Notes under the pieces: model-generated
What the model saw: the letters and a program-made list of their open reading frames with translations, nothing else
The model's database searches: none
Told to the model about the DNA's origin: nothing
Position numbers and translations under genes: made by a program
Assembly: GCA_030694985.1 (NCBI GenBank)
Contig: JAUYTV010000024.1
Span: forward strand, 1-64,000
Length of the DNA stretch: 64,000 nt
Origin: Methanoregula sp.
Lineage (GTDB): Archaea > Halobacteriota > Methanomicrobia > Methanomicrobiales > Methanospirillaceae
Reading direction: 5' to 3'
Part shown: positions 33,369 to 36,851 of the stretch, in pieces
How positions within the stretch are numbered: the stretch's first letter is position 1
Layout of the letters: each line of letters begins with the position of its first letter

Positions 33369-33570
33369 TTTTTACAACTCCGTATCCGGCAAGTGCACGG
33401 GAATCATTTTTTTTTAAAAGATCCCCTGAGGTGCTCCTGCCAGAATTACTGTAATGAAGTATTGAACTAATCAGATTGAATACCTGCCGCAGAAAATTTC
33501 TATGCATGCTGCCAGTCAGTAATGGGTAAAGATCATCACACCTTTATGGTTGTGCGAAAAAGTGAGTACT

Positions 33571-34833
33571 ATGGCGCCGCCTCCAACTCTTGTACTTCAG
33601 AATGTCAGGTTACCCTCAGGGCGTGTAGCGGATCTCACACTCGCTGCCGGGAAAGTTTCCCATGTGGGTGCGTATAAGGGTACTGCAGAACTCTGCGATT
33701 GCAGGGGCTGTATTGTCATACCGGCTGCAGTTGATATGCATGTTCATATGCGGGGCGGTGTGCAATCAGCTAAAGAGGACTGGGGGAGTGGAAGTATGAG
33801 CGCTATTGCCGGGGGTGTAACCGTAGTTGTTGACCAGCCCAACACCATTCCCCCTCTCACCACCCCTCATGCATTGGCGGATCGCGTACAGGATGCAAAA
33901 AGCCATTCGTACTGCAACTTTGCTGTCAACAGCGGGGTGACTCCTGAAACCCCCCTGGAATCTATGTGGGATGCAGGAGCTATGGCATTTGGTGAAATCT
34001 TTCATGCCCCCTCCAGTTATGGCGATGCAATTGACGGGGTAGCATTGGGAGCGGCATTTGATCGAATTTTTAAACTTGGCGGGCTTGCAACCATCCACGC
34101 TGAACGTACCAATACTTCTCCCGATACAGATCTTGTATCGCATGATCTGGTCCGCTCTTCTTTGGGAGAATCAGAAGCAGTTCGAACCGTACAGTTCCTG
34201 AATCGCAGTGACTGCCGGCTTCATTTCTGCCATATGAGCTCCGCCCGTTCTGTTGATGCCGCCTCAGGTTCGGTTGAAGTAACTCCCCATCACCTGTTCC
34301 TTTCGTCAGAGCAGTTCGATAAAAGCGATACCTGCGGGAAGGTAAATCCGCCTCTCCGTACAGAAGCGGAGCGAATGGGGCTCTGGGGGCGATGGAGCCG
34401 GATAGATGTGATTGCATCCGATCACGCCCCCCACACGAGAGAAGAGAAAAAACAGGATTTTCCCGGCGCCCCCTCTGGGATTCCGGGTGTCGAAACCATG
34501 GTGCCCCTTCTGCTCGCACAGGTCCTTGCCAAAAAGATCGATCTGGCATCTGTTATTGACAAGACTTCGTATGCCCCCGCCCGGTTGCTGGGAATTCCCT
34601 GCGCGGGATTTGATATTGGGGACCGGGCAGACTTTGCCATCTACTCTAAAAAGCCTGAGCTCATAAAGGCCGAATCTCTCCACAGCAGGTGCGGGTGGAC
34701 GCCCTTTGAAGGACAGAAAGCCATCTTTCCAAACATGGTTGTGATGAATGGTTCTATTACATATCTTGGAGGAGAATTCTACCGCCAGGAGCCAACATGG
34801 TTTGCGGGAAAAGGTTACAATGGAAATCATTGA
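33571..34833 (+). CDS. pyrC: Dihydroorotase
   Basis: 420 residues from ATG 33571 (AAAGTGAG upstream); a start at 33550 would add seven residues. Third step of pyrimidine synthesis, closing carbamoyl aspartate to dihydroorotate. Metal ligands: DMHVHMRGG (the HxH), RLHFCHMSSARSVD, and VIASDHAPHTREEK (the catalytic Asp region). VVVDQPNT corresponds to the 'DMPNT' motif with Gln in place of Met. C-terminal PARLLGIP....GDRADFAIY is also typical. pyrE is in the window at 40.4 kb, and carAB at 50-54 kb. Confidence 0.93.
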   Translation: MAPPPTLVLQNVRLPSGRVADLTLAAGKVSHVGAYKGTAELCDCRGCIVIPAAVDMHVHMRGGVQSAKEDWGSGSMSAIAGGVTVVVDQPNTIPPLTTPHALADRVQDAKSHSYCNFAVNSGVTPETPLESMWDAGAMAFGEIFHAPSSYGDAIDGVALGAAFDRIFKLGGLATIHAERTNTSPDTDLVSHDLVRSSLGESEAVRTVQFLNRSDCRLHFCHMSSARSVDAASGSVEVTPHHLFLSSEQFDKSDTCGKVNPPLRTEAERMGLWGRWSRIDVIASDHAPHTREEKKQDFPGAPSGIPGVETMVPLLLAQVLAKKIDLASVIDKTSYAPARLLGIPCAGFDIGDRADFAIYSKKPELIKAESLHSRCGWTPFEGQKAIFPNMVVMNGSITYLGGEFYRQEPTWFAGKGYNGNH

Positions 34834-34919
34834 TAAAAAAAAAGTTGACCGCCTCACCATACATTGTTGGTTTTTTGTCCCTTCCCCAAGTGCTAAATAT
34901 CTAAAAACATGATGTATCT

Positions 34920-35090
34920 GGTGCCAAGACAGCGCAGCCATAGGTCCCCGGGTGATCGATTGACAAGCGTCTGGATATGATCCATGGGACAACCCGGTTG
35001 CGCGACAGGCATACGCCCGGCAAGGGTTTAAACACAGGTGAAGAACGGCAGCAGCCACTGGTGATCCATGTGCGTTTATGCCGGGCAACA
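34920..35090 (+). ncRNA. Candidate double-hairpin H/ACA guide RNA (pseudouridylation)
   Basis: Two hairpins, each ending in an ACA box one base after the stem. Hairpin 1: GCGCAGCC (34932-34939) with GGTTGCGC (34996-35003), then G and ACA (35005-35007); inner stem GTCCC/GGGAC (34944-34948/34986-34990), giving 14 nt from pocket top to ACA. Hairpin 2: GCCCGGCA (35015-35022) with TGCCGGGC (35079-35086), then A and ACA (35088-35090); inner stem CACA-GG/CC-TGTG, 15 nt to ACA. Both contain the same kink-turn-like motif, GGTGA (34951; 35037) and TGATCC (34978; 35062), expected to bind L7Ae. A TATA-like CTAAATATCTAAAA lies at 34893-34906 and a T-run at 35104-35110. Targets were not predicted. 5' end approximate. 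Confidence 0.7.
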
Positions 35091-35112
35091 TTCTTATTAG
35101 CGGTTTTTTTCA

Positions 35113-35430
35113 ATGCCCGATATTTCTGAGGCTCTGTTGGAGGAGCGGAACGGTACGATTATCTCAATCGATGTTACGGCCGGCTCAAAGGCAGAGCTCT
35201 TTCCTGCAGGATACAATGAATGGCGAAAAGCCATCGGTTGTCGGGTTACTGCCCCTGCGCTTGAGGGGCGGGCAAACAAAGCCGTCATTACCCTGATTGC
35301 TGAAACGCTCGATCTTCCGGTATCTGCAATCAGCATCCAGTCCGGTGCAACATCATCCCAGAAACGTGTGCTGGTTGCTGGTGTTGCGAAAAACGATCTT
35401 CTTTTACGGCTCAATTCACACAACATGTGA
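35113..35430 (+). CDS. UPF0235 (YggU/DUF167) family protein
   Basis: 105 residues: ISIDVTAGSKAELFPAGYNEWRKAIGCRVTAPALEGRANKAVITLIAETLDLPVSAISIQSGATSSQKRVLV matches the DUF167 family signature ('v.V.P.A....v.....rl.v.v.apP.dGkAN.alikfla..l.v....v.i..G..sR.K.v.'). It is a small alpha/beta protein of unknown function. ATG 35113 is 23 bp after the last ACA of the RNA candidate. Confidence 0.92.
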   Translation: MPDISEALLEERNGTIISIDVTAGSKAELFPAGYNEWRKAIGCRVTAPALEGRANKAVITLIAETLDLPVSAISIQSGATSSQKRVLVAGVAKNDLLLRLNSHNM

Positions 35431-35618
35431 ATGAGTTACTTGTGAATATCCCGATAAAATCGAAATTTCATACCCGCGCTTGGCATTATCAATTATTCAC
35501 CCTTGACTTTTCTGGTGAGTTTAAAAGCATGCCCTTTAAGTAATTTTACATGATATATATAACGTATACCTATGATCAGGCATTACATTCATCGCATGAT
35601 ACATGGGGGTGCGTTTAC

Positions 35619-36851
35619 ATGTATTCACCGGATACTACCAAGTACCTTATTCACATCAGCCTCACAGCAGAGGGGGTGGTCGAGAAACCCGATGTAGTTG
35701 GTGCCATTTTTGGGCAGACTGAAGGGTTACTCGGCGAAGACCTGGATCTGCGGGATCTTCAGAGAACAGGACGTGTCGGACGAATTGATGTCCAGATAAC
35801 GAGCAAAAAAGGCGAGACCAAGGGAGAGATTCTGATCTCTTCTTCACTCGACCGTGCGGAAACGGCAATCCTTGCCGCATCGCTAGAGACGATCGACCGT
35901 GTCGGTCCATGCGTAGCGCATATTGTAGTCGAGTCTATTGAGGATATTCGCGTCAGCAAGCGAAAGTTGATAGTCGAAAGGGCAAAGGTGCTGTTAATCG
36001 AGCGGTTTGATGACGGCACTATCGATAGTGACGAGTTGTTAGACGATGTCCGCGAGAGTCTCCGCATGGAAAAGATTGGTTCCATTGGCGAAGAGAAAGT
36101 GCCAGCAGGTCCAAATGTGCTGGAATCTGATGCAATCATTGTTGTTGAGGGCCGGGCAGATGTGTTAAACCTTCTGCGTTACGGTATAAAAAATGCCGTT
36201 GCTGTTGAAGGGACCAATATTCCAAAGACTGTTGTTGATCTCTGCGAGAAGAAAACGGCTACTGCCTTTTTCGATGGTGACCGTGGCGGCGAACTAATTC
36301 TTCGGGAGCTGTTGCAGGTTGTAGACATCGATTTTGTTGCATTTTCGCCCAAGGGAAAGAGCGTCGAGGACATGACAAGAAAAGAGGTGATCAAGACGCT
36401 GAGAAACAAGGTGCCTGTGGAGTATGTCCGTGACCAGTACTTTGAAGATGCAGCGGAACTTCCGGCCGAACTACGAATTACACGGGGCAGTGGGGATGAG
36501 CCGGATTCATCCGGCAAAAAGACCCGTCATGCATCTCCAGCAAAGCGCACATCTGACGGCACAAAAGGGCCCCTGACGCTCCGTGACCATATCGATGATG
36601 TAAAAGGCCACAGTCTTGCCCGCTTTCTTACCGATGACCTGAACGTGGTAAAAGAACTGCGCCCGGATGAAGTTGAAAAAGCGATAGAAACCCTTGATGG
36701 CACGGTTAGTGGTCTTGTAGTTGATCGCCCGGTTGACCAGAAACTGCTGGACCGGCTGGTCTGGAAAGGTCTCTCCTATGTAGCGGCAAAAGACTTTAAG
36801 GGCGTTATAAAACGACCGCTATCCATCCAGTTACTGAAAATGGGTACTTAA
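35619..36851 (+). CDS. dnaG: Archaeal DnaG primase-like protein
   Basis: 410 residues from ATG 35619, preceded by GGGGGTG; a start at 35550 would add 23 residues. N-terminal [52 protein letters not shown]-like segment (here TKYLIH...). A central Toprim domain ([50 protein letters not shown]) contains the conserved EGR and DGD acidic motifs. C-terminal helical regions follow. In archaea DnaG associates with the exosome and can make RNA primers. TATA-like TATATATAACG at about 35552-35564 precedes it. Confidence 0.94.

Follow-up and report, generated by a model that had tools for sequence, protein, structure and literature searches.

The window, the 64,000-nt stretch of DNA analysed here, carries two stem-loops on its + strand in the spacer between pyrC (33550-34833) and a DUF167/UPF0235 gene (35113-35430), which is followed by archaeal dnaG. 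The order pyrC - H/ACA RNA - DUF167 - archaeal dnaG (33550-36851) is common to the source genus and largely to the Methanomicrobiales. An earlier note on this DNA had proposed that the stem-loops form a candidate double-hairpin H/ACA guide RNA, and covariation, conservation, rRNA-matching pockets, and calls of the HgcG family at sister loci all support that reading. Features of the locus are collected in Table 1.

In 51 loci the conserved start of the RNA, GCCGA/GCCAA, is preceded at a constant spacing of 24-29 bases by an A+T-rich box; the A+T fraction at -29 to -24 is 0.69-0.94, versus ~0.4 further upstream. The TATA-like box reported earlier stands as such a stretch; it looks like the H/ACA RNA's own promoter, a role that is putative, and the RNA is presumably expressed. 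A terminal T-run, also reported earlier, is present directly before the DUF167 start codon, which comes 22 bases past the second ACA, but is not conserved among the aligned relatives.

Table 1. Features of the H/ACA RNA locus, in window positions
Feature	Positions	Strand	Evidence or remark
TATA-like promoter box TAAATA	34894..34899	+	A+T-richness in 51 loci; promoter function putative
Double H/ACA guide sRNA, approximate transcript	34920..35092	+	conserved block and folding; ends estimated
Closing helix, 5' strand GCC	34923..34925	+	pairs with GGC 35008-35010, around hairpin 1 and its ACA
Hairpin 1 lower stem, 5' strand	34932..34939	+	7 of 8 pairs with compensatory changes
Hairpin 1, 5' guide AUAGGUC	34940..34946	+	rRNA complementarity
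Hairpin 1 upper (GA) stem, kink-turn, distal stem-loop	34947..34988	+	comparative structure
Hairpin 1 kink-turn	G.A pairs 34954-34955/34979-34980; bulge UAU 34976-34978	+	
Hairpin 1, 3' guide ACAACCC	34989..34995	+	rRNA complementarity
Hairpin 1 lower stem, 3' strand	34996..35003	+	covariation
Hairpin 1 ACA box	35005..35007	+	invariant, 32-sequence alignment
Closing helix, 3' strand GGC	35008..35010	+	partner of 34923-34925
Hairpin 2 lower stem, 5' strand	35015..35022	+	5 of 8 pairs with compensatory changes
Hairpin 2, 5' guide, conserved GGGU	35023..35032	+	rRNA complementarity
Hairpin 2 upper (GA) stem, kink-turn, distal stem-loop	35033..35072	+	comparative structure
Hairpin 2 kink-turn	G.A pairs 35040-35041/35063-35064; bulge GGU 35060-35062	+	
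Hairpin 2, 3' guide	35073..35078	+	GUUUA in source genome, GUUA in most relatives
Hairpin 2 lower stem, 3' strand	35079..35086	+	covariation
Hairpin 2 ACA box	35088..35090	+	invariant, 35-sequence alignment

Architecture and covariation of the hairpins

Both hairpins follow one plan, with an 8-bp lower stem, a pocket, and an upper stem with one bulged base in its 3' strand, above which come G-G/C-C, U.U, tandem G.A/A.G pairs, a 3-nt NRU-type bulge in the 3' strand, and a covarying distal stem. Archaeal box H/ACA guides are expected to combine an internal pocket with a lower stem of about 8-9 bp, an ACA directly 3', and a kink-turn or kink-loop in the upper stem, and both hairpins have all of these. 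The earlier description of the lower stems (one G-U in hairpin 1, perfect in hairpin 2), with an ACA one base past each, is accurate. So is that of a GGTGA...TGATCC combination in both hairpins, which forms a canonical kink-turn with the tandem G.A/A.G pairs and the NRU-type bulge; by its sequence, the upper stem of either hairpin is an archaeal H/ACA kink-turn of the canonical L7Ae type. Counted from the pocket, the upper stem of both hairpins is ten positions long with non-canonical pairs included, and this matches the 10-bp GA stem of productive H/ACA guides (PMC4652768).

The comparative register of hairpin 1 pairs CCC 34947-49 with GGG 34986-88, followed by G34950-Y34985 and one bulged base. 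This is one base away from the register proposed earlier for the upper stem (GUCCC/GGGAC), which was dropped, as G34950 covaries with 34985 (G-C, G-U, A-U). The pocket of hairpin 2 is as first proposed, whereas that of hairpin 1, proposed as 34940-34943/34991-34995, is corrected to 34940-34946/34989-34995. The rule for the distance from the pocket top to the ACA is 14-16 nt, with 14-15 nt in productive folds (PMC7991803, PMC4652768). The distances of 14 and 15 nt claimed for 34991-to-ACA and 35073-to-ACA are both recovered. Hairpin 2 keeps its 15 nt as stem-to-ACA distance; hairpin 1 has 14 nt when counted from an AACCC guide and 16 nt in the comparative register, which exceeds the 14-15 nt of the productive folds in PMC4652768.

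Folding of the 171-nt stretch gives -68.8 kcal/mol (z = -2.97), and none of 200 shuffles is as low; hairpin 2 alone has a folding z of -2.90. Covariation was assessed in 32 hairpin 1 sequences and 35 hairpin 2 sequences, with 500 shuffled alignments each; 94.0% of the alignment cells for hairpin 1 and 90.6% of those for hairpin 2 are paired. Compensatory changes, as the stems proposed earlier imply, are abundant in both. Changes on both sides occur in 13 pairs and 50 cells of hairpin 1 (shuffled mean 5.5 and 14.6) and in 14 pairs and 44 cells of hairpin 2 (shuffled mean 6.0 and 11.2), with 0 of 500 shuffles as high in either case. For both hairpins the comparative structure outscores every version of itself slid along the alignment.

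The closing helix can pair in 32 of 32 sequences. Because it is almost invariant, with one C-G to U-G change, its covariation says little. Four bases separate it from hairpin 2. In the Methanomicrobiales it is flanked by conserved GAUA and GACA, and a different short helix seems to replace it in some other clades.

Orthologs and membership in the HgcG/Pab40 family

Sequence conservation of the region extends to 53 of 60 relatives, which belong to six families. Covariance models for the two hairpins, R2 and R1, were built from Methanomicrobiales sequences and run with strict filters on 247 genomes of the phylum; 105 genomes gave a match to hairpin 1 and 62 a match to hairpin 2. With the filters off, a tandem pair in the same order is found in nearly all of 41 fetched loci, halophile-type loci included, and hairpin order is conserved through the Methanomicrobiales. 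The earlier note had called for a comparison across Methanomicrobiales genomes; the element keeps its neighbors throughout that order and occurs elsewhere in the phylum without them. In other clades the order pyrC - H/ACA - DUF167 is partly retained, and most of the distant orthologous loci fetched, including all halophile-type loci, have no pyrC or DUF167 match.

Nowhere in the window is an Rfam gathering threshold attained, and the one weak hit at a relaxed threshold, to sn2903 (13.8 bits versus 50), is a chance match. In five sister loci (L132, L151, L135, L117, and L118), however, RF00064 (HgcG/Pab40) covers both hairpins at its gathering score. These matches span both hairpins plus one further upstream, and models R2 and R1 place both hairpins inside them, in the same order as HgcG hairpins two and three. 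Halobacterial HP1 and HP2 are homologs of Pf7 stems II and III (PMC2584109). The sister-locus calls and this homology together indicate that the element is the Methanomicrobiales version, with hairpin 1 as HP1 and hairpin 2 as HP2. On sequence and model grounds, then, it is an ancient ortholog, with two hairpins, of Haloferax HP1/HP2 and of stems II and III of Pab40/Pf7.

In HgcG/Pab40 (Pf7, RF00064) the counterparts of hairpins 1 and 2 are the second and third motifs. HgcG/Pab40 has three hairpins, in contrast to the two of the window copy, which RF00064 does not match. Upstream of hairpin 1 no conserved block for the first HgcG hairpin (stem I) is found, and the TATA-like box occupies its place. 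Several clades outside the Methanomicrobiales have a hairpin upstream of hairpin 1 (R1 matches in L120, L121, L122, L123, L135, and L151); in some loci it falls within the HgcG match, and it appears to have been lost in the Methanomicrobiales.

Predicted rRNA targets of the two pockets

All uridines of the source genome's own 16S and 23S rRNA were scanned as targets before sites from the literature were consulted, and E. coli equivalents of large subunit (LSU) positions were taken from the numbering table in PMC2584109. As the earlier note had suggested might be found, the pockets match rRNA around uridines, and these uridines are known to be pseudouridylated in archaea. Hairpin 1 has two top LSU fits of nearly equal score. 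One is GGGUU[UA]GACC at LSU 2619, equivalent to E. coli U2586 in the peptidyl transferase center, where guide GGUC pairs with GACC 3' of the U and guide AACCC with GGGUU 5' of it, leaving guide bases 34989-34990 unpaired. The other, GGUUGU[UC]GCCUAU at LSU 2588, is equivalent to E. coli U2555 in the A-loop, where guide AUAGGU pairs with GCCUAU 3' of the U and ACAACC with GGUUGU 5' of it, for 12 bp. Of 400 shuffled pockets, 9 attained the best score and one the second-best. U401 of 16S rRNA is a further fit for hairpin 1, but its pairing with the 5' guide is interrupted, and it was set aside.

U2586 is Haloarcula pseudouridine 2621, assigned to Haloferax HP1/Hvo1 (PMC2584109, PMC4652768), and U2555 corresponds to Pyrococcus abyssi L2672, listed for Pa35.1 (PMC4652768, with the offset from PMC2584109). 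Hairpin 1 most likely guides modification of 23S U2586, as its complementarity predicts, and possibly of U2555 too. The bases that fit U2555 only, UA 34941-34942 and AC 34989-34990, do not vary in the alignment of Methanomicrobiales copies. In several other clades the U2555 match lengthens to 7-9 bp on its 5' side; the automatic guide finder was misplaced in two g13 rows (g13 being a genus of the Methanomicrobiales), two halophile-type rows, and two Methanomicrobiales rows, so that guide counts across clades are approximate. Covariation between guide and rRNA is unusable at U2555 and U1915 because the 23S rRNA is nearly invariant there.

For hairpin 2 the site with the highest mean score over relatives, by a small margin, is UAAC[UA]UGACCC at LSU 1958, which is U1915 in helix 69. 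Guide GGGU pairs with ACCC 3' of U1915/U1917, and GUUA with UAAC 5' of U1915. U1915 is the top hairpin 2 site for three relatives (L032, L039, and L150). It is not the best-scoring site for the window copy alone, whose 3' guide reads GUUUA where most relatives have GUUA. HP1 is assigned to 2621 (E. coli 2586) and HP2 to 1956/1958 (1915/1917), and the third motif of HgcG/Pab40 guides the U1915 equivalent (PMC2584109; PMC4652768). Mainly by homology to Pab40.3/HP2, hairpin 2 most likely guides U1915 and perhaps U1917 too.

Genus g13 offers a view of the hairpin 1 pocket where one target has been lost. Among the Methanomicrobiales genomes in which position 2586 can be read, all 8 of g13 have C and the remaining 78 have U; g13 is the sole genus with C2586 among the 24 read in the order and among 97 in the phylum sample. 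In five g13 hairpin 1 copies (L153, L155, L273, L274, and L275; rRNA loci L264-L272), whose guides were read by eye, GGUC has become GGCC and AACCC has become AACAC, AACAG, or AACAU, whereas GGUC and AACCC are both kept in the other copies read in the Methanomicrobiales. The g13 copies retain the bases that fit U2555, with ACAAC and UAGGC giving 5 + 5 Watson-Crick pairs. Halophile-type copies show the reverse, as GUC and AACCC are kept and the A-loop fit is lost. The decay in g13 and the reverse pattern in halophiles tie hairpin 1 to U2586 and suggest a second role at U2555 in copies whose guide permits it. As each pattern is one evolutionary event, the argument is strong for U2586, where the known halophile target adds to it, and moderate for U2555.

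Alternative readings and related guide RNAs

The stretch at 34920-35090 is, with a probability of about 0.93, a two-hairpin H/ACA guide sRNA orthologous to HgcG/Pab40 stems II-III and HP1/HP2, with targets U2586 and U1915. The source genome has a Cbf5 gene (363 bits to the NCBIfam model, cut-off 242), a Nop10 gene, and two L7Ae-family genes. By analogy with established H/ACA biology, the lower stem and ACA of each hairpin would bind Cbf5-Nop10-Gar1 and the kink-turn would bind L7Ae, while the pocket would pair with 23S rRNA, leaving U-N unpaired in the Cbf5 active site for conversion of the U to pseudouridine. The moderately unusual folding of the single sequence (z = -2.97) would also suit chance hairpins in a G+C-rich spacer, or a pyrC terminator. 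That idea carries practically no weight, as it is refuted by the compensatory changes over 32-35 sequences and sits badly with invariant pocket bases and phylum-wide conservation. Only slightly less improbable is a cis-acting structured 5' leader of the DUF167-dnaG transcript, riboswitch-like or bound by L7Ae, that guides nothing in trans. The element does lie directly upstream of DUF167, an arrangement shared by the whole of the Methanomicrobiales, and L7Ae is reported to regulate some mRNAs via kink-turns (PMC5539422). A leader would not, however, be expected to have rRNA-complementary pockets, ACA boxes, or HgcG membership at sister loci, nor to lack a DUF167 or pyrC match at most of the ortholog pairs fetched from other clades, all halophile-type loci among them. 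A guide RNA at this position may nonetheless have a regulatory side effect on DUF167.

Within the guide RNA reading, the question is how many targets hairpin 1 serves. The family, HgcG/Pab40 or HP1/HP2, is already known; what is new is a pocket that may have two targets. It is proposed, tentatively and at a little under even odds, that the pocket comprises two overlapping guides for U2555 and U2586, 31 nt apart, in which lineages have specialized: halophile-type copies would have kept the U2586 guide only, and g13, having lost U2586 (U to C), would have let that guide decay while keeping the one for U2555. A single target, either U2586 with the U2555 match as a by-product or U2555 by itself, has a comparable and likewise less than even chance. 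Halophile-type copies retain only the U2586 fit, Haloferax HP1 has U2586 as its assigned target (PMC2584109), and the bases that fit the two sites overlap. Yet U2586 alone does not account for U2555-only bases that are invariant in the Methanomicrobiales and kept in g13 without U2586, nor for the 5'-side U2555 match of 7-9 bp in several other clades, and U2555 alone leaves the g13 changes and the halophile-type copies unexplained. A pocket that fits two uridines of the catalytic center is directly testable, and g13, where U2586 and its matching guide are both gone, is a natural experiment in guide-target coevolution.

With this element, a guide RNA previously known from Thermococcales, Archaeoglobus, and halophiles is placed in a methanogen order as well, one where the Rfam model misses it. 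The alignments and models from this analysis can annotate it phylum-wide, and they yield sharp predictions of pseudouridines in the catalytic center of the methanogen ribosome. The literature searched describes no H/ACA RNAs of Methanomicrobiales and does not use the name sR-h45; an earlier annotation in other papers is possible.

Haloferax and other halobacterial HP1-HP2 RNAs (Hvo1, Hvo2) share the hairpin order and the predicted targets. They differ in that a spacer separates halophile-type hairpins, which are nearly contiguous in the window copy, and in that A-loop (U2555) complementarity, present in the window copy, is absent from halophile-type loci. Pab35.1 (HgcF motif 1) has the same predicted A-loop target as the second fit of hairpin 1 (PMC4652768); HgcF has no match in the window, so Pab35.1 is a different RNA. 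The hairpin-hinge-hairpin-ACA plan recalls eukaryotic two-hairpin H/ACA snoRNAs. In contrast to these, the window RNA has an ACA after each hairpin and has kink-turns, which eukaryotic H/ACA snoRNAs lack (PMC7991803), and the eukaryotic H box ANANNA does not occur in its hinge, which reads GACAGGCAUAC (ACAGGC).

One relative departs from this compact arrangement. In L053 (hairpin 1 at 500-590 and hairpin 2 at 200-278, - strand), ~215 extra bases lie between the hairpins, versus 6 in L152 of the same genus, which suggests that each hairpin functions as a module of its own. A hairpin is present in the insert, possibly a mobile element.
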